A stretch of 20,392 nt of DNA from a virus: positions 1 to 20,392 of IMG/VR virus record IMGVR_UViG_3300020473_000164, one strand, 5' to 3'. Within the stretch, counting starts at the first letter, position 1, and each line of letters opens with the position of its first letter. The notes under the pieces are model-generated. The model was given only the letters and a program-made list of their open reading frames with translations. It ran no database searches and was not told the origin of the DNA. Positions 765 to 10,420 of the stretch are shown piece after piece. Both the position numbers and the translations under genes were made by a program.

Positions 765-1496
765 TTATTGAAGTTGATTAGTACCTGGTACATATTGAGC
801 AGCGGGAGCTCCTCTATCTAGGGATGCTACCGTATCAGCAGAAGCACTTGGAAGATTGTTCTTCGATCTTTCACGTTGACCGCTACCATTCTTAGCAGGT
901 TTTCCTGTTACCGAATCAGTAATAGCATTAAATAAAGCACCATAGACAGACATCACACTGTTGGCTGCCATTTCAAAGTCACCTGCACTAGCAATCTTAG
1001 CATAAGAAGAAGCAGTTACCAAGAATTTTCTTTGTGCATTAATAAGAACATCCTGTCCTGCATTGATTTCTACATTACCTTGAGATCCATTACCAAAAGT
1101 AGACATCTCAATATCATCTGCTTCTAATCTAATCTTACCATTGTGAGCTTTAAGAACAATATTACCATTCCATGCAGTAAGAGTCAAACTATCTATCTTA
1201 TCATTATTCTTCTTCCCACATTCCACCATAAAATTACCTGGACTAGTAGAAACAGTCCATCCTTCTCTTGGTCCATCAATATCTAATGATAATTGATGTT
1301 CTCCATCGGGAGTATGAAGACCAATTCCTTCTGTAACATCTCCTTGCTTATGAATCTTTCCAAAAGCAATATGTCCCTTCGCATTTCCATACTGTTGAGC
1401 AGAAAAATTCTGCTTGGCAGTATCAGTTGGTGGACTAGTAGGAGGATCCTTCCTTAGTCTATCATTCTGCTGAACTATCGGAGTTCCTTTTGTCAT
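765..1496 (-). CDS. Beta-helix structural protein, candidate baseplate spike/needle
   Basis: 243 residues. The N-terminus (1-40) is polar and low-complexity. Residues 41-95 look like a small beta domain (AFGKIHKQGDV, GIGLHTPDGEHQLSLDIDG). Residues 102-185 form a run of short alternating strands with regular Gly/Asn turns (LTLTAWNGNIVLKAHNGKI, then GNVEINAGQDVLINAQRKF). This pattern is typical of the triple-stranded beta-helix of VgrG and gp5-type puncturing devices. The C-terminal tail (200-243) is polar. The start overlaps the stop of the upstream 1372-residue gene by four bases (ATGA), which suggests translational coupling. gp5 in this operon has no beta-helix of its own, so this gene may supply the needle; that is inference. 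It could equally be another baseplate-tip subunit. Confidence 0.65.
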   Translation of the reverse strand: MTKGTPIVQQNDRLRKDPPTSPPTDTAKQNFSAQQYGNAKGHIAFGKIHKQGDVTEGIGLHTPDGEHQLSLDIDGPREGWTVSTSPGNFMVECGKKNNDKIDSLTLTAWNGNIVLKAHNGKIRLEADDIEMSTFGNGSQGNVEINAGQDVLINAQRKFLVTASSYAKIASAGDFEMAANSVMSVYGALFNAITDSVTGKPAKNGSGQRERSKNNLPSASADTVASLDRGAPAAQYVPGTNQLQ

Positions 1497-4400
1497 ACTA
1501 GATTATCGGGAGTACCTGGAATATCCAAACGAGGATCGTCACTACTTATATCAGTACCTTGTCTGAGGATTGCTGATGGAGGTGTAGTGACCATAGCATC
1601 AATACTTTCTTGCATTGTATCATAAATCTGTACTAATTCACCAGGAGTTTCATAATATCCTGCATATCTCACACCATCTTTATAGAAAACAGCCCCAAAA
1701 TATGCACGACCATCATAATATCCTGTTTGTTTTATTCCTACAAGATCAGTCACCTGTATTAATTTATCACGATCCACTACAATAGGATCACGAACAGGTT
1801 CAAATACAGGAACCAAATCAGCATTTATTCCTGTATCAGATATAATTCTGATGTTAGGCCAGCGAGTGAATCCTAATCCTCCATCATCTACACATATTTT
1901 TTCAATAGTACCAAAAGGACCACACTTACATATAGAAAGCTTAGCACCTCCTTCATTAGGTTCCATCACTACTTGATCTACTGCACAATTATAATTAATA
2001 CCTTTATTCTTCACAATTATCTCTTTTAATTTTAATGCAACAGGATATCCTGGACCAGTAGGAGGTTTGTATCCATTTCCTGGATCAACAGGACGTACTG
2101 GATCAACCGTACCTTTTCCTCCTACTGCCTTAGGGCAAGGAGGAGGAATAAGTTTGGCAGAAACCCCAACAGGATTAACCGACCAAGGTTTAAGTATACC
2201 TGTTCCTACTCTTACCTTTCTCGTTATAACAACAGCACCATAAGTTGGATTAGTTCTAAATGTACTTCCCAAAGGAGCTGGAATATTAGTGAGTACCATT
2301 TCTATTGTGTGTCTTCCTGCCGACATCTCAAAATTATAATTTCTTACATTCTGAAATACTTTTGCGAAACCAACTTCCCTTCCATCAATCTTAACAGTTA
2401 AAGTATCATCTGAAAGAAGATTTATAGTATAGGTTCCACTTTCTGGAAAATTAACATTCCTCCACTTTAAATTCCAAGTCTTATCCATAATCTCTACGGG
2501 ATCTGTATGGAAAGGAGTAAAAGTACGTCCTAAATCCGATCCCATATAACTTCCTAAACGAGGACCTTCATAAGTTGATCCATCCTTTACTGTTCCGCCG
2601 ACCAAACTTCCTTTATCACTTACTTTTGGTGGTTTAGTAACTATAAACTTACAAGTTGCTTCATTAGGACCATTTTTAAAATCATAGAATCTTCCATCAC
2701 TAACAGCACACTGAATATCAGTCCAATCTCCATCAGTATGATCTTCCATCTGTAAAACAGATCCTTTTGCTCTTAATCTTACTCCATGTTTTGTTTCTTT
2801 ACTTGTTACCTTTATAGTATAAACTTTATTAATCTCTACTTCTTTTACTAAAGCTTCTTTTAATTGACCTCTTTGACCTAAAAGATTTCCATCTGCATCT
2901 CTAACAGGAGTATATTCCTTAGCAAAATTAATACCTAATTCAGGAATCTCTATTCCATTAGAAAACATAGAACCTGATGTAATCTTAAATCTTACACTCT
3001 TCTTCGCCGCAGGAAGAGGAGTCTCACCTAACCAATCAGCAGTATTAAAAATCTTTTGATCTATTAATTGAGTTTCTTCAAATTTATAATTATGAACCTC
3101 AACCTTTATGGTGGCAGATCCTTCCTTTAAAAAGAATTTACTTTCTGCACCTGATCCCTTAAAATGTCCTCCCTTTTTATTACCTTTACTCAGATCTAAA
3201 ACCATATCTCCATTAATCCAAAACTTGGCTTCATCATCTACGGTTCCCTTCAACTTATAATATCCATCATAAGGAACATCAATAGTCCATTCATTAGTAA
3301 AAATTCCTCCCCCACCTGAGGTATTCCTAGTATCATAAGGAGCCACAGGAGACATGGCATACTTATTTTGAAACTTACCCCATGCCTTAGATACCACAGG
3401 ATGCCACTGTTGTTTGGCAGGAAATCGGGTAGTCCAGAAAGGATTAGGAGGACACGCCCCTGTCTGTACTGGCACAGGTTGTTGAGGAATGGGAGGTGCA
3501 GGTGCTTCAATAGTTAATGCAACCCCCATAGGATTTTCATTCCAAGACTTCTGAACTGTCCTTTCTTTCTCCGAAAATACAGTCTCAATATTAATTGCCA
3601 ATGCCATAGGATTAATACCTTTAATCCCATCAAAACCAAACCTACCCCCCGGAATCTGATCTAAATCCGCCGTAATAGTATGATTTCCTTTCTTTATAGA
3701 ATGAACTTGACGATACTTTCCTGTTCCTACTGTTGTTCCTGGTTTAAATCCTTCCTTACGAATAGAAACTTGATCTCCTATCTTTAAGTTTACATTATCA
3801 TCCACCTCTATTTCAATGACATAATTTCCTGTCACAGGGAAATTAACATTACTCCAAATAATTTGATGAGTTCCTGCATATGGATTGTCATTTAAAGTAA
3901 CCGTAGTATCAAAAGGACAAATACCATACTCGTTTATAAATCCTCCTCGATTATAAACATTAGTTCTCCATAGTTTTCTATTTGCTTTCTCAATATAATC
4001 AACTGTATTAAAAACAGTGGCTACCTCTTGGGTTTCGCTAGATTTTAATCCAGTAATTGCTCCTTTAACTTCTCTTGCATCCTGTAAATTTACTGCACTT
4101 AATGTTCTTAAAGAAGCATTTACATCTGTACCATGTGTATCAAAGAAGTTTATTACTCCATACCTATTCGTCTCTGGCCCATAAGCAGTATTTTTCTTAA
4201 CTAATTTGGATCCCCCATCATTTCCAAACAATTGAATAGGTCCATATCCTTCTTCACTACGCTGAAAGACTCCCTTTGCTGAAACAGAACCCTTCCTCTT
4301 AAAAGTATCACCACTCTTTTCTCTTTCTAAAATAAGATCAGGTCCATCAGTATTAGGAATAATAATCTTGGTGATAGCAGTGCCAGCAGTCCGTGGATTA

Positions 4401-5611
4401 TCATTATATTCCAGTTTAAGAGATACTTCGGTCTCTACATTTCCCCCTACCTTCATAAAATATCCATTACTTTTCTGGATAAAATCTACTCCTGCAACTT
4501 GAATCTCATTTCTTACATCCTGTTGTGGTCCCGTACCTTCTTGCTGAACTTTAAACTTCTCTTTAATAGGAATATTAAACAACTCTAATCTTAACTTCTG
4601 CATTCCCTCCTTCAATACCTTTTTAATGGGGGATGGTCCCGATTTAAAAGAATCTAAATCAGAAACAAATTCATTGTTAATATATAATTTTCCTCTATTG
4701 TCTCTGGTTCCTCTAAACTTATACTCTCCATCAAATGGAACATCTAAATCCCATTCAAAAGTATACCACCTTCCTGCAAAATCAGATCCTTTTACATTCG
4801 ATTTTGGTTTGGGAGAAATTGCATATGAATTTTGAAACTCACCCCATGCGGAATGATCTACTTTATAAAAATTTCTAGTAGTTTTACCATCTCCGGTCAA
4901 CTTCAACGGAGGCTCTTTACGAGTAGTCCACCATGGATTCTGTACTTCCCTTAAAGTTTTAATATAATCTTCAACGGTTTCTTGAAAAGGTGTGGTAGAA
5001 GGATTAACATATCGATTAGGATTCCATGATCCGATATTCTTCCCATCAATACTATATACACTTCCAAATCCTACTTGTTTAGGAGCACAAGTTTCTAAAT
5101 CATAGACCTCAAAATCCTCTTCATCCTCATAAGTTTCAAAAACAGTTGCCGTAGTACCAATTCCTGCGATTACAACAGCACCAGCTGCCCTCCCAGATTC
5201 ATCTTTTACTTCTACAATAGGGGGATATTGATAACCAAATCCCCGATGCACCATATCAATTCCAATAAGACCACCATCTCTACCAATAATAGGATTAGCC
5301 TGAGCACCTATTCCACCACCACCCATAAAGATTACTTTAACAGGAGCATCCTCAGACTTTTTATCCATCTGAATCCCTTTACACTCATCTACTTCTGAGG
5401 TGAGATCATTAGGAGTTAATTTATTAACTTCATTAATGTTTAAATATCTAATTCTTTCTCGTGTTGCAAAGATGAAAGTAGTTCCTGGATTTGCTTTTGC
5501 ATACACATTTGCATCATGAATACCTATACCCGCCACATATCCTCTATCGGTTGACACATAACCGACTTTAATATCACATTTCGTTGGAGGTTGAAACAGA
5601 TTAAATGTCAT
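1493..5611 (-). CDS. Large virion structural protein with duplicated PA14-like modules
   Basis: 1372 residues, the largest gene here. Residues 90-155 hold a Gly-rich GFGYQYPP module. Two PA14/lectin-like modules lie at about 225-346 and 723-841. Both share W-T-T-R, AWG-FQN-YA-SP, a D-VP-DG-Y-K-G-D strand and a K-INN/ING turn. Each is followed by a second beta-sandwich module (585-704 and 1047-1157) with NVNFP--G-Y and a closing NP-GV motif. Residues 1160-1180 form a Pro/Gly linker. Residues 1204-1275 repeat a GG-GF-WP module. The last 80 residues (GAVFYKDGVRYAGYYETPG, then a QESIDA-VTTPPSA stretch and a LDIPGTP ending) form a C-terminal region I recognise from cyanophage structural proteins. 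PA14-type folds often bind carbohydrate, so a surface-contacting baseplate or fibre role is inferred. The start is the first ATG, 11 bases after the previous stop. The reading frame is intact over its whole length. Confidence 0.8.
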   Translation of the reverse strand: MTFNLFQPPTKCDIKVGYVSTDRGYVAGIGIHDANVYAKANPGTTFIFATRERIRYLNINEVNKLTPNDLTSEVDECKGIQMDKKSEDAPVKVIFMGGGGIGAQANPIIGRDGGLIGIDMVHRGFGYQYPPIVEVKDESGRAAGAVVIAGIGTTATVFETYEDEEDFEVYDLETCAPKQVGFGSVYSIDGKNIGSWNPNRYVNPSTTPFQETVEDYIKTLREVQNPWWTTRKEPPLKLTGDGKTTRNFYKVDHSAWGEFQNSYAISPKPKSNVKGSDFAGRWYTFEWDLDVPFDGEYKFRGTRDNRGKLYINNEFVSDLDSFKSGPSPIKKVLKEGMQKLRLELFNIPIKEKFKVQQEGTGPQQDVRNEIQVAGVDFIQKSNGYFMKVGGNVETEVSLKLEYNDNPRTAGTAITKIIIPNTDGPDLILEREKSGDTFKRKGSVSAKGVFQRSEEGYGPIQLFGNDGGSKLVKKNTAYGPETNRYGVINFFDTHGTDVNASLRTLSAVNLQDAREVKGAITGLKSSETQEVATVFNTVDYIEKANRKLWRTNVYNRGGFINEYGICPFDTTVTLNDNPYAGTHQIIWSNVNFPVTGNYVIEIEVDDNVNLKIGDQVSIRKEGFKPGTTVGTGKYRQVHSIKKGNHTITADLDQIPGGRFGFDGIKGINPMALAINIETVFSEKERTVQKSWNENPMGVALTIEAPAPPIPQQPVPVQTGACPPNPFWTTRFPAKQQWHPVVSKAWGKFQNKYAMSPVAPYDTRNTSGGGGIFTNEWTIDVPYDGYYKLKGTVDDEAKFWINGDMVLDLSKGNKKGGHFKGSGAESKFFLKEGSATIKVEVHNYKFEETQLIDQKIFNTADWLGETPLPAAKKSVRFKITSGSMFSNGIEIPELGINFAKEYTPVRDADGNLLGQRGQLKEALVKEVEINKVYTIKVTSKETKHGVRLRAKGSVLQMEDHTDGDWTDIQCAVSDGRFYDFKNGPNEATCKFIVTKPPKVSDKGSLVGGTVKDGSTYEGPRLGSYMGSDLGRTFTPFHTDPVEIMDKTWNLKWRNVNFPESGTYTINLLSDDTLTVKIDGREVGFAKVFQNVRNYNFEMSAGRHTIEMVLTNIPAPLGSTFRTNPTYGAVVITRKVRVGTGILKPWSVNPVGVSAKLIPPPCPKAVGGKGTVDPVRPVDPGNGYKPPTGPGYPVALKLKEIIVKNKGINYNCAVDQVVMEPNEGGAKLSICKCGPFGTIEKICVDDGGLGFTRWPNIRIISDTGINADLVPVFEPVRDPIVVDRDKLIQVTDLVGIKQTGYYDGRAYFGAVFYKDGVRYAGYYETPGELVQIYDTMQESIDAMVTTPPSAILRQGTDISSDDPRLDIPGTPDNLV
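2141..3445 (-). repeat. Internal repeat unit 2: PA14-like plus beta-sandwich modules
   Basis: Residues 723-1157 of the same protein: PFWTTRFPA, AWGKFQNKYAMSP, NEWTIDVPYDGYYKLKG and KFWINGD. Then follow WRNVNFPESGTYTINLLSDD and SVNPVGVSAKLIPPP. Key residues align with unit 1 in the same order. The stretch between the two modules is much less alike. Confidence 0.75.
3500..4939 (-). repeat. Internal repeat unit 1: PA14-like plus beta-sandwich modules
   Basis: Residues 225-704 of the 1372-residue protein. The unit starts with a PA14-like module (WWTTRKEPP, then AWGEFQNSYAISP, FEWDLDVPFDGEYKFRG, then KLYINNEF). It ends with a module carrying WSNVNFPVTGNYVIEIEVDD and NENPMGVALTIEAP. The same order recurs in unit 2 (2141-3445), so a duplication of the pair is likely. 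The repeat is visible at protein level and diverged at DNA level. Confidence 0.75.
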
Positions 5612-5622
5612 AGGTATATTTA

Positions 5623-7836
5623 TTAGTAGATATCAAATGCTTCATCAAGTTCTTCCTGACTTGCATTCTTTGCATCATCCCAATCAGAATCCTGAATAAC
5701 ATCCACCGCATCCTTAACAGGTTGAACAAATGATAATGGATTTTTAATGGGTGGTGTTGGGAATTGTTTAGCAACAGCATCACCGATTGATTTCATGCTT
5801 GGCATCTCACCATCAGGCATGGCACCCGACCCTCTTGCCAGAGTATAGAAATCGGACATAGCAGGAACAGGAGGAAGCTCAAAGGGAAAAACATTCGATG
5901 TTATATTTTTAAAGTTCAATGCGCTAGTTAAACTTCCCCCAATATTTCCTATCTTACTCAACATACTACCCATACTCTGAGGTTTATTTTTCCCTGATTT
6001 GGGAGCTTCCATCTTAACTGGACCAGAATCAGAGACACTAGTAATAGTAAAGGTCGCATCAGGTGCAACACCAGCATAGGTTTCTCTCTCTACCGTAATT
6101 AATTCTCCTACTTGATATCCTTGTCCCGGATTATTCACTACGATACCAGGATTAACTCCTATCATAGAGTCAATACGACCCCGTGGTTTAATAATCTCAA
6201 ACGTACATCCCGATCCACCATTAGAACCCGTAACCGTCAATATATCTCCGGCTATGTAATTCGTCCCACCACTTCCTTCCGTAATAGTAACCTTGGTTCC
6301 TATCCCACCTGAATATGTAATGTTTGCTAAACATCCTGTTCCAGATCCACCCGTGGTACTTTCATTAGTATTGGTACCAGTATTACTAGGAGTTCCACCC
6401 CCAGTATTATATCCTGATCCACCATCAAGTATTTTAATATATAACTCACCTTCTGTTGTACCCGTAGCACCACCCTTACTAACTCTAATATTTACAGTCA
6501 ATCCATTACCTGGTCCAGGAGCAGTAGATGAAACACCAACAGGTCGCACAGTTCCTGATCCAGTCACCCCAATATCATCTCCACTTATATAATAACTACC
6601 ACCCTGTATATTTCCTCCACCTTCTTCATCACTAAATCCAAGAACCTTTCCTTCCCCACTATTATCAAATGCCTTAGGTTGCATTTTCTTATCCATTTCT
6701 TCTAACTCAGATTGCATGTCACCAATAAAAGCATTAACTCCATCGATAATATTACTAGTTGCTTGATCTATTGCTTGCTTATTAGCACCCAGTGCTTGAC
6801 CAATAATATTTTCTGCATAACAAATAGGAACCTTGGGATAAGTTCCCACATCCCCATACTTAACATCCTCACCATCACCCTCAACTAAGGAATCAAATTT
6901 TAGAGTAGTATTTCCACTGCGTTGAGAACCATCTCTTTCAATAGGAAGAGTAGTACCAGTCCTTCCCGATTCCTCTACGGTATATACATTGTTTCTAAAT
7001 CTAACTTTCTCCCCTTTGGTTACAGGCATACTAGGAATCCAATCTTTAATATTCATCAAATTACTCATAGGAGTAATAGGATTAAGTGCTTTCTGTTGTG
7101 CTTGTTGTATCAAAGAATCTACATTAAAAGATTGCTTTAAAATACCACCCAACATTCCCTGCATACCATTGGAAATATCACCAAAAGATTGAAGACTATT
7201 TTGATTCATTAAATTTTTCATGTCAGCAAACATTGCTCGCTTTCCTGCTGGCATAGAAGATATAGCAGCAGATAGTTCTGCATTTACTGTCTTATTAGTA
7301 AACTCCATCATCTTATTCATGATGGTTTTCATATACTTAGAGTTAACAGATGCGGCATCTTCAATTAACTTTTCAATATCCTGTTGTCCTTGTCCCATGG
7401 ATGCCATGTCTGCATAGTTTCCAAAGGATTCCATCACTTTATTAATTTGATTACTCACATTCTCAATAGTTATCTGCATTCCCTTCGTAGCAGAATCAAC
7501 AGGATCTTGTACTTTACTTACAGGAGTCTTTTCTTGATACTTTTCTTCTCTTCTGACATCACCAACACTCACTACATGAATTGCTTCACTTTCAAGTGTA
7601 GCTCCTGGTTGTGCAGGACTCGTAGGCGAATCAGCATCAGCAACCCGATTCCTTAGACCATCAACAACTTTATTCTTTACAAAGCTATTAGCAAACTCTT
7701 CTATCTCACCTGGATTAAATCCATTCGCCAACCACTGACTTTTTAAACTCTCTACATCTCCCAGAGCATTCTGAATGTCTTTTAACTCTCCTGCTGTACG
7801 AGGAAGATTTGTAGGTAATCCAAACTTATCTAACAT
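5623..7836 (-). CDS. Virion structural protein with Gly-rich GGxGY repeats
   Basis: 737 residues. The N-terminal 1-60 region is helical (MLDKFGLPTNLPRTAGELKD). Residues 110-260 are predicted helical and Met/Gln-rich (ENVSNQINKVMESFGNYADM). Residues 272-316 hold a small beta module (VRFRNNVYTVEESGRTGTTLP) seen in many marine phage tail proteins. Residues 338-385 are helical (AENIIGQALGANKQAID). Residues 412-603 hold three Gly-rich modules, each with a GG-GY or GG-NY turn followed by a beta-strand. The C-terminus is Pro-rich and acidic. The gene lies directly downstream of gp5 and has one of the strongest ribosome binding sites in the window (GGGAGGAG). A baseplate or hub-associated role is inferred from this position. 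No catalytic motif is apparent. I recognise it as a cyanophage-type structural protein but cannot assign a T4 counterpart. Confidence 0.75.
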   Translation of the reverse strand: MLDKFGLPTNLPRTAGELKDIQNALGDVESLKSQWLANGFNPGEIEEFANSFVKNKVVDGLRNRVADADSPTSPAQPGATLESEAIHVVSVGDVRREEKYQEKTPVSKVQDPVDSATKGMQITIENVSNQINKVMESFGNYADMASMGQGQQDIEKLIEDAASVNSKYMKTIMNKMMEFTNKTVNAELSAAISSMPAGKRAMFADMKNLMNQNSLQSFGDISNGMQGMLGGILKQSFNVDSLIQQAQQKALNPITPMSNLMNIKDWIPSMPVTKGEKVRFRNNVYTVEESGRTGTTLPIERDGSQRSGNTTLKFDSLVEGDGEDVKYGDVGTYPKVPICYAENIIGQALGANKQAIDQATSNIIDGVNAFIGDMQSELEEMDKKMQPKAFDNSGEGKVLGFSDEEGGGNIQGGSYYISGDDIGVTGSGTVRPVGVSSTAPGPGNGLTVNIRVSKGGATGTTEGELYIKILDGGSGYNTGGGTPSNTGTNTNESTTGGSGTGCLANITYSGGIGTKVTITEGSGGTNYIAGDILTVTGSNGGSGCTFEIIKPRGRIDSMIGVNPGIVVNNPGQGYQVGELITVERETYAGVAPDATFTITSVSDSGPVKMEAPKSGKNKPQSMGSMLSKIGNIGGSLTSALNFKNITSNVFPFELPPVPAMSDFYTLARGSGAMPDGEMPSMKSIGDAVAKQFPTPPIKNPLSFVQPVKDAVDVIQDSDWDDAKNASQEELDEAFDIY
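6028..6603 (-). repeat. Three Gly-rich GGxGY beta modules
   Basis: Residues 412-603 of the 737-residue protein contain three modules of 50-65 residues. Each has a Gly-rich turn followed by Tyr and a short acidic or Gly loop (DGGSGYNTGG, GSGGTNYIAGDILTV, NPGQGYQVGELITV). Related turns occur in the neighbouring 1372-residue protein (HRGFGYQYPP, DGGLGFTRWP). They look like a shared building block. Confidence 0.6.
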
Positions 7837-7840
7837 TATT

Positions 7841-7848
7841 CTCCTCCC
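7841..7848 (-). promoter_or_regulatory. Strong ribosome binding site of the 737-residue structural gene
   Basis: The minus strand reads GGGAGGAG, 4 bases before the ATG of the 5623-7836 gene and just after the gp5 stop. It nearly matches the anti-Shine-Dalgarno complement and fixes the start. Most other genes here have weak sites. Confidence 0.7.
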
Positions 7849-8547
7849 TTAATTGTATTGGTCATCTCTTCTGAGACGAGCAGGAGTTCGACCCACTAAC
7901 TCCTGTAAACCATCCCCAATATAAGTCCTAATGGTTTTGGTTTTTGCTTGTTCTGTCAATGAATTGGTGCCACCACCACCTCCTCCGAGTCCCATCATAC
8001 TCAAAGCCGACTTCTCAATATTTTGTTCCTTAGATCCTGGTTTAGATATTGTCATATCACTATCAGGCACCTTATCTTCTGCTTCTAATTTTGGTTTTTC
8101 TGTTTCGGCATACCCACTTACACCAGAATAAGCAAGTCCACCAGTTAATTCTGTCTTGGTTTGCAGTTTCGTTTGAAGATTATTACCCAACACTCCCATA
8201 ATAACAGGCACTTGTTCTTGTCCACCATCCATAAAAAATCCATAAACCACATTCCCTTGTCGCAGAGCAGGTGTAGCAAAGGCACCTGCTTGTCCACCCC
8301 CACCTGTAATAGGATACATTACCGTAGCCCAAGGAAGTTCTTCGGATTCAATAACCTCCGTTGCTCGATCATGAAGACCCATAATCCTCACCTTATATCG
8401 ATAACCCCACCCAGGAATTGCTTCCCTCTCCTCAAACTTACCTGGATTAATGTTTTCTCTCCATGTAGAATCATCGGCAATCTGTCCCATCCACCAGTTG
8501 AAAGATTGCCCCAGTATACCAGAATTAAATAATGATCCTACTTCCAT
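7849..8547 (-). CDS. gp5: Baseplate central spike/hub gp5, OB-fold form lacking lysozyme domain
   Basis: 232 residues. Residues 15-125 match the N-terminal OB-fold of T4 gp5: NWWMGQIADD, then YRYKVRIMGLHDR, then ELPWATVMYPITGGGGQ, then QGNVVYGFFMDGGQEQVPVIMGVLG. T4 gp5 (about 575 residues) continues with a lysozyme domain and a triple beta-helix. Here the remaining 105 residues are polar, include a six-glycine run (188-193), and end in a basic TPARLRRDDQYN tail. No lysozyme catalytic region is visible. In T4 the OB domain sits on the gp27 hub trimer, and a gp27-like gene lies just upstream here, separated only by the CP12-like gene. The start is 3 bases past the CP12-like stop. The gp5 assignment is firm for the OB domain; peptidoglycan cutting must come from elsewhere, if it occurs at all. 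Confidence 0.85.
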   Translation of the reverse strand: MEVGSLFNSGILGQSFNWWMGQIADDSTWRENINPGKFEEREAIPGWGYRYKVRIMGLHDRATEVIESEELPWATVMYPITGGGGQAGAFATPALRQGNVVYGFFMDGGQEQVPVIMGVLGNNLQTKLQTKTELTGGLAYSGVSGYAETEKPKLEAEDKVPDSDMTISKPGSKEQNIEKSALSMMGLGGGGGGTNSLTEQAKTKTIRTYIGDGLQELVGRTPARLRRDDQYN

Positions 8548-8550
8548 ATC

Positions 8551-8820
8551 TTATTCATCGTATACTCGACACTCCAATGAATCGGGATGGTTGTCACAAT
8601 AAACTTCAAGTTTCTTATCTTGATGTCGCTGATGCCAGTCATTAATCTGTGCATCACTCTTATCAACTTCCTCTTCACTATGAGCATGAAATGCATCATT
8701 GTGCATTTCTAAGTCAGCTTCACTATATTCTAACATACCATGATTGATATGTTCTTTATGATCCTTAGGATCTAGATAGACTTCGTGGTCTAAATCGTGC
8801 TTTGGAATTTCAGTAGTCAT
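8551..8820 (-). CDS. CP12-like small protein (GAPDH/PRK regulator C-terminal motif)
   Basis: 89 residues, very acidic and His-rich, probably helical or disordered over 1-68. The last 20 residues carry the hallmark of the CP12 C-terminal domain: LEVYC, eight residues including a Pro, then CRVYDE. The Cys-x8-Cys pair and the terminal acidic tail are the elements that CP12 uses to bind GAPDH. In cyanobacteria CP12 ties GAPDH and phosphoribulokinase into an inactive complex and so shuts the Calvin cycle. The N-terminal Cys pair and the AWD-VEEL core of full CP12 are not seen, so this resembles the short marine form. CP12 genes are known auxiliary metabolic genes of cyanophages (Thompson and colleagues). 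The gene lies between the gp27-like and gp5 genes, with a late-promoter-like element upstream and an AGGGA ribosome binding site. Function is inferred from the motif. Confidence 0.7.
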   Translation of the reverse strand: MTTEIPKHDLDHEVYLDPKDHKEHINHGMLEYSEADLEMHNDAFHAHSEEEVDKSDAQINDWHQRHQDKKLEVYCDNHPDSLECRVYDE

Positions 8821-8841
8821 AAAATTAGTCCCTTACTTTTG

Positions 8842-8850
8842 TATTTATTA
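8842..8850 (-). promoter_or_regulatory. Candidate late promoter element for CP12-like gene
   Basis: The minus strand reads TAATAAATA, the same variant as before gp26. It lies in the 37-bp gap between the gp27-like stop and the CP12-like start. The expected leader is about 16 bases and contains an AAGGGA ribosome binding site. An overlapping TATAAT could also act as a sigma-70 -10, but no -35 is visible at the right spacing. Confidence 0.5.
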
Positions 8851-8857
8851 TACACCC

Positions 8858-10420
8858 TTACAAGGTCCCTGACCCGCGTGATGTATGGGTTCCTTTTCTA
8901 CCAACAGAATCTCTAATGAGATTCATCTTAGTATAAGTTTCTTTGGGTGAAATATAATGACATATATCAGATATAACATAGACTCCCCCACTTTCTTCAT
9001 TCCAATTCTCTAATTTCTTATCTGCTTCTAACTTAGGAGCATCTATAAACACAGCATCTCCTGCATGTAAAGAGAAATCTCCTGCCACTACAACTGTACT
9101 CACCTGTCCAAACAACTGTTGATATCTCTGAATAGATTGATTAAATATATTTTCCAATTCAAAATTCTCTTCCTTAGATTTATCAATTTGTTGATCGGTT
9201 TTTCCACCAGGTAAAGTTCCCGTGTCTTTTATATTCCAAGTAGTTCGAGTAAAAGATTTATTAAGTTCTTCACTATCAAATTCCTTATTAGATTGCCAGA
9301 AATTTTTTCCTGCCAAAGTTAATTCTTCTTGATTTCCGGGAGCCTCACCAGTCAAACCACTTAAACTTGTATCAGCAGAAAGAATTTCCTCACTATATTC
9401 ACAACTAAAAGGATTAAAAGAGATACAACGAGTAGAATATCCACCCATCATATGCTTACCTTGCACATTAACTGCATTATCTCTACTATATTCCAATGCT
9501 TTAAGATCATATCCCGCAGGAATACTTTTTGTCACTCCATCTAAGGTTTCATTATAGATGATAGATTTTTTCTTTTTCTGTCCCAATAAAGTATCTAAAG
9601 ATTTGAAATGATAACCATCAGAAGTCTCATACAAAAGAAATCCTGCGGTATTTCCCTTTTTATTTTTCTTAGGAGCTGCTTTGGTCCCAAGATTATTCAT
9701 ACACCAAAAAGGTTTCTTATTGTTACCAATAAAATTATAATTCTTTGCGCCCGTCTCCTCAATATCTAATGACTTCGTAGTCTTTAAGTTCTCATTAAGA
9801 ATTTTTTTAATATGTTCAGATATCTTACCCTCATAAACAACCTGTACTCTACTCTGACCCTTCTCATTCATAATAAATTCTTTGGATACTAGATCTAATT
9901 GAGCAGCAGACTTAGTAGTCTCATCATCAAGAGGAGTAACCTTATTAACATACATATCAAGATTTAAAGTCGTCCCTCTGTTATCAGTGAACTCTAAATT
10001 AACTTTCTCTTCTCCTACAATAGGTAATCCATCAATAGCACTCGTCGTATTCTTACAACTCGTCCATTGCTTTTGATTGTTTGCCGAATTTCCTGCATCG
10101 GTATAAGTGAATGTAGATCTTATACAATTAGATAAAAGACTTTCATAATACATCAAACGTATCATACCACCAGTCAGATTAACATTATCCCTATTCTTAT
10201 TAGAAAAAACAGTTACCTCTTTAACATTAGCAGGACCAGCAGGCTTACCAAACTTAGCAAGATTCTCTCTTCTTCGCTTGTTACCAAACCTTCGCGCATT
10301 TTGTCTCTCTTGGGTAGTAGGACCTCCGGGAGCAGGTCTAATAATATTTCCCGCCTCTACATTTTCCCTATTACGTTGACGTTGGGCGGTTCTTTTCTTA
10401 ACAGTAGCATTAGATGGCAT
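8858..10420 (-). CDS. gp27: Baseplate hub subunit, gp27-like
   Basis: 520 residues. Residues 1-65 are strongly basic (KKRTAQRQRNRE, NARRFGNKRRRENLAKFGK) and look disordered. Residues 68-185 resemble the first tube-like domain of gp27-type hub proteins: MIRLMYYESLLSNCIRSTF, then TYTDAG, EKVNLEF, then LDMYVNKV and LDLVSKEFI. Residues 195-290 hold a helical/insert domain with a KPFWCMNNLG segment and GFLLYETSDGYHFKSLDTL, which is characteristic of the family. Residues 430-510 form the second barrel (VSTVVVAGDFSLHAGDAVFID, then GGVYVISDICHYISP). The hub trimer forms the cylinder under the tail tube and carries gp5. T4 gp27 is 391 residues, so this is longer. A strong GGAGGAG site precedes the ATG. 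The family call rests on motif order and position next to gp5; the symbol follows T4. Confidence 0.75.
   Translation of the reverse strand: MPSNATVKKRTAQRQRNRENVEAGNIIRPAPGGPTTQERQNARRFGNKRRRENLAKFGKPAGPANVKEVTVFSNKNRDNVNLTGGMIRLMYYESLLSNCIRSTFTYTDAGNSANNQKQWTSCKNTTSAIDGLPIVGEEKVNLEFTDNRGTTLNLDMYVNKVTPLDDETTKSAAQLDLVSKEFIMNEKGQSRVQVVYEGKISEHIKKILNENLKTTKSLDIEETGAKNYNFIGNNKKPFWCMNNLGTKAAPKKNKKGNTAGFLLYETSDGYHFKSLDTLLGQKKKKSIIYNETLDGVTKSIPAGYDLKALEYSRDNAVNVQGKHMMGGYSTRCISFNPFSCEYSEEILSADTSLSGLTGEAPGNQEELTLAGKNFWQSNKEFDSEELNKSFTRTTWNIKDTGTLPGGKTDQQIDKSKEENFELENIFNQSIQRYQQLFGQVSTVVVAGDFSLHAGDAVFIDAPKLEADKKLENWNEESGGVYVISDICHYISPKETYTKMNLIRDSVGRKGTHTSRGSGTL

Follow-up and report, generated by a model that had tools for sequence, protein, structure and literature searches.

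A CP12 of a known phage type beside baseplate hub genes, and the repeated exchange of two CP12 types in the gp27-gp5 slot

Results

The window analyzed here, a stretch of viral DNA of 20,392 nucleotides, carries on its minus strand, at 8551-8820, a gene for an 89-amino-acid product that reads MTTEIPKHDLDHEVYLDPKDHKEHINHGMLEYSEADLEMHNDAFHAHSEEEVDKSDAQINDWHQRHQDKKLEVYCDNHPDSLECRVYDE and lies within a co-directional series of tail and baseplate genes. The neighbors named in the original prediction were both recovered: a gp27-like tail/baseplate hub protein (8858-10420, minus strand; phrog_350, T4-GC15-like), 21% identical to PSSM4_017 of P-SSM4 (E 1e-7), and the N-terminal OB part of the baseplate hub protein gp5 (7849-8547, minus strand; phrog_33098, E 1.8e-70), 31% identical to the gp5 of P-SSM4 (E 4e-14). 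The gp5 gene of the window (5623-8547, minus strand) is split, and its second reading frame (5623-7836, minus strand), which has its own start and a ribosome-binding-like sequence, GGGAGGAG, matches the next part of the same profile (positions 199-443). This split is common to L002, L003, and L004, while several other loci have a single open-reading frame of 600-800 amino acids. A further open-reading frame of 1372 amino acids (1493-5611, minus strand), in which several repeated stretches match PHROGs labeled either 'major head protein' or 'virion structural protein', contains a piece resembling the gp5 C-terminus.

The 89-amino-acid protein matched the Pfam CP12 profile (PF02672) over residues 34-88 with 38 bits (E 2.9e-9), far beyond chance given the curated cut-off of 22.7 bits, and the same profile matched 32 of 32 scanned members of a broad family alignment, so the CP12 homology proposed earlier held in the profile search; NCBIfam yielded no informative match. 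It also matched the phrog_2603 profile (E 1.8e-19), and its closest relative among cultured phages is PSSM2_066 of P-SSM2 (58.8% identity over residues 6-89, E 2e-24), to which it is orthologous by sequence and which is labeled as a member of cluster T4-GC63. The entry 'T4-GC 337 + 63 = CP12 carbon metabolic regulator' is given by Sullivan et al. 2010, who found cp12 in 15 of 16 cyanophages with one gene per phage, and whose P-SSM2 gene measures 267 bp, as does PSSM2_066 (PMC3037559). Judged from its sequence, the window gene is a well-conserved CP12 of an already known phage type in its usual neighborhood, and its family membership is nothing newly recognized, T4-GC63 having been listed as CP12 since 2010.

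The protein contains two cysteines in total, C75 and C84, both in the C-terminal tail LEVYC-x8-CRVYDE (residues 71-89 plus stop; 8551-8610, minus strand). No N-terminal Cys pair is present anywhere in the 89-residue sequence, and the AWD_VEE core was found in none of 74 distinct window-type sequences, as the original prediction had stated for this protein. In contrast, the C-x8-C pair and an acidic, Tyr-containing tail were present in all 74, with no variation in either Cys or in CRVYD[DE]; the conservation on which that prediction depended is therefore seen. The best phmmer matches in the PDB were the CP12 chains 3zdf_C and 6gfo_E (E about 1e-3), the former a CP12 peptide from a GAPDH complex. 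An AlphaFold model had a mean pLDDT of 58, with a C-terminal helix at residues 69-77 and a short N-terminal hairpin, a weak model being expected if the protein is disordered. The lack of an N-terminal Cys pair and of AWD_VEE is a known pattern in cyanobacteria and cyanophages, and the protein falls in the CP12-C type, with the C-terminal pair alone (PMC3906501).

Comparison with known CP12 types places the window protein among several forms sharing this tail. Classical CP12 (Thermosynechococcus and Synechococcus elongatus, plants) has a C-terminal GAPDH-binding peptide like the window tail, but also the N-terminal Cys pair and AWD_VEE core that the window protein lacks and that are needed for the PRK complex. 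The marine cyanobacterial host CP12s compared, which likely belong to the class that Stanley et al. call CP12-C(M), also lack both elements and keep C-x8-C with CRVYDD; they differ in being host-encoded and in an N-terminal half of the form MKxIDEHIxKD...HHPEDxHDP. The host-like phage CP12 (T4-GC337; P-SSM4, P-HM2, and Syn9 gp17; phrog_627) has the C-terminal Cys pair and tail of the window protein, but is 75 amino acids long, has an N-terminal half like marine host CP12, and ends in CLVYDD. Members of T4-GC63 (PSSM2_066, Syn1_235; phrog_2603) share family and tail with the window protein, although the Syn1-type members are without its long N-terminal block. PHROGs 627 and 2603 are both labeled as of unknown function, and their members are these two phage CP12 types. 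An S-CAM1-like CP12 was also seen in the Synechococcus single-cell genome AG-670-F04 (L137:2842-3144), where its neighbors look like host genes (a fasciclin-like protein and a leader-peptide-like reading frame); the T4-GC63 type may have come from a host gene of this kind.

The N-terminal block, HDLDHEVYLDPKDHKEHINHGMLEYSEADLEMHNDAFHAH (residues 8-47; 8680-8799, minus strand), is near-invariant in 75 distinct sequences. Among the types compared, its pattern HDLxHEVYxDPKDxKEHxNHGMxEY occurs in the window-type and P-SSM2-type proteins only and is absent from the host CP12s and from S-CAM1-type phage proteins, so that this conserved, His-rich half looks phage-specific. Full blocks filed under host genomes (L134-L136) do not count as host copies: the three metagenome-assembled genomes are non-cyanobacterial, and the Actinomycetota contig (L134:1659-5702) is a misbinned cyanophage fragment in the order gp27-CP12-gp5. 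The Flavobacteriales (L135) and Gammaproteobacteria (L136) contigs, which encode the window CP12 type, look misbinned too. Likewise, a non-cyanobacterial host, raised by AG-345 single-particle records, was set aside, because psbA and talC, metabolic genes typical of cyanophages, occur in those relatives that lie on longer contigs; the AG-345 plate came from an extracellular sort gate (PMC6122165).

Across the 75 distinct window-type genes, the median synonymous difference was 0.67 at 86% amino acid identity and dN/dS was about 0.065-0.07 for the whole gene and equal in both halves, indicating that, with synonymous sites near saturation, the likeness of these CP12s comes from selection and not from recent transfer. 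The CP12s are 78-91% identical to that of the window and the gp27 and gp5 proteins at those loci mostly 22-55%, the former values being ascertained and the latter not. Purifying selection on the N-terminal half equals that on the tail (pN/pS 0.133 vs 0.121), the half has many invariant His residues, and a predicted short hairpin at residues 14-25 is the most confident region of the low-confidence model. These features would suit an adaptor whose tail holds GAPDH and whose N-terminal half brings in a metal or a further partner, with a function beyond Calvin cycle inhibition. However, S-CAM1-type relatives keep the tail without the block. The predicted His/Asp/Glu-rich composition is there, with 11 of the protein's 89 residues being His, but phage CP12s of the host-like type are rich in His as well, with 9.6 on average, so that His content by itself is nothing special. 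We consider such an adaptor very unlikely, and metal binding by this half is a guess.

The flanks of CP12 loci in an IMG/VR sample (80 best relatives for each of three queries and 37 of a fourth) were searched with iterated gp27 and gp5 profiles. The order gp27-CP12-gp5 was found at 64 of 81 window-type, 43 of 80 P-SSM2-type, and 64 of 80 host-like (T4-GC337) loci and at none of 37 S-CAM1-type loci, fractions that describe the top matches per query, near-copies included, rather than population frequencies. In slot loci the three genes stand close together, separated by a few to some tens of bases. The cultured P-SSM4 and Syn9 hold CP12 in this slot, as do most environmental T4-GC337 copies; cpeT, which in cultured phages often follows cp12 of this type, lies inside it in both, and Syn9 adds a tRNA. 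Since the slot holds cp12 at most sampled loci, its presence in a hub operon is no longer a surprise, and the special location and virion role first raised for the window gene are unsupported, the slot normally being occupied by cp12 in cultured and environmental cyanomyoviruses.

A CP12 fold repurposed as a small virion or hub assembly factor acting with gp27 and gp5 would account for the conserved adjacency to these genes and for a conserved N-terminal block unseen in the host CP12s compared. Proximity to the hub genes is not universal, however: CP12 is found elsewhere at 14 of the 81 window-type loci and at about 30 of the 80 P-SSM2-type loci. The complete P-SSM2 genome is a case of this kind, with the gene amid small hypothetical reading frames and not, as in the window, next to gp5. 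The hub genes are thus not required, host-like CP12 occupies the same slot in other phages, and S-CAM1-type members are never in it; we regard a virion role as highly improbable. Off-slot copies of both types stand amid small open-reading frames and methylases, and the window-type ones, as in P-SSM2, are preceded by a conserved 72-amino-acid gene (L008:1985-2203; phrog_6312, PHROG label unknown function), which precedes PSSM2_066 as well.

The late-promoter-like element predicted upstream of the window gene exists (AATAAATA), with the motif ATAAATA at 8842-8848 (minus strand), 21 nt before the CP12 ATG. The window contains seven sites of the form [AC]TAAATA, four of which stand 10-40 nt before a gene start (P about 1e-6), namely those of the gp4-like, gp48-like, gp26, and CP12 genes; gp26, gp4, and gp48 are late genes in T4. 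Among distinct host-like slot copies, 43 of 49 have the motif upstream, compared to a background of 1.6%, and among window-type copies it precedes 12 of 14 off-slot and 9 of 58 slot copies. The slot cp12 of Syn9 likewise stands behind a CTAAATA. In most of the remaining copies, no more than about 45 nt separate the stop of gp27 from the start of CP12, a distance that suggests read-through transcription into CP12.

These results bear on whether the gene is an ordinary CP12 whose slot is a mere insertion hot spot, with a middle or dual promoter and no regulatory meaning in the hub neighborhood. Such a reading is consistent with the cpeT and tRNA insertions and with the variable cp12 positions reported by Sullivan et al. 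2010, including the hot spot 'near gp5' (PMC3037559). It also fits P-HM2, whose cp12 adjoins talC and is a middle gene (PMC5082946) despite an ATAAATA upstream, indicating that the motif by itself does not set timing. On the other hand, the frequency of the motif before host-like slot copies exceeds background by far, and the sequence immediately before the window CP12 showed no sigma-70-like promoter, leaving the hot spot reading unlikely. For the late synthesis originally proposed, support comes solely from the promoter motif and the position in the operon, and on that footing late expression is plausible.

What is new here is that the occupant of the gp27-gp5 slot has switched between two CP12 types some 4-5 times. 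A gp27 tree of slot loci requires at least four switches between the host-like and T4-GC63 types, all forced by well-supported branches and four still without long branches, and a gp5 tree requires five, three of them forced by well-supported branches, these counts being limited by the use of FastTree and by possible recombination of the flanking genes. Each of 49 other records, including 13 full-length cultured phage genomes, contained exactly one CP12 of either type, and no second CP12 was found in these or in the window record. Repeated switching within the slot, with no record holding both types, suggests that the two do the same job; this argues for functional interchangeability of two divergent CP12 types and against a virion role.

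Discussion

CP12 of cyanophages is thought to switch off host carbon fixation. The window gene encodes a phage CP12 with the C-terminal pair alone, which probably binds the photosynthetic GAPDH of the host and lowers Calvin cycle flux, and which is probably expressed from a late-type promoter and/or by read-through. The C-terminal helix-loop with the C75/C84 pair would most likely bind GAPDH as CP12 does, and the resulting fall in flux would leave ATP and NADPH to phage DNA synthesis. As the protein lacks the AWD_VEE core and a Cys pair at the N-terminus, it would not be expected to form a GAPDH/CP12/PRK complex of the classical kind in the usual way. Transcription would probably start at the late-type promoter just upstream and/or continue through from the baseplate hub genes.

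Further attention should go to the CP12 swap and to the promoter motif of late type. As a tentative suggestion, which we hold to be possible but doubtful, selection in marine cyanomyoviruses may have made the gp27-gp5 slot a site of late expression for inhibitors of the Calvin cycle, where two divergent CP12 lineages, one with a conserved His-rich module unseen in the host CP12s examined, swap repeatedly so that carbon fixation stays off during virion assembly, unlike the middle-phase cp12 of P-HM2. The finding of a non-host-like CP12 in hundreds of environmental contigs, swapping with the host-like type in a fixed slot behind a late-type motif, makes both timing and functional equivalence directly testable, and PHROG families 627 and 2603 can now be assigned to CP12. 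Viruses may have few direct means of halting carbon fixation in the ocean, and phage CP12 is one such candidate.
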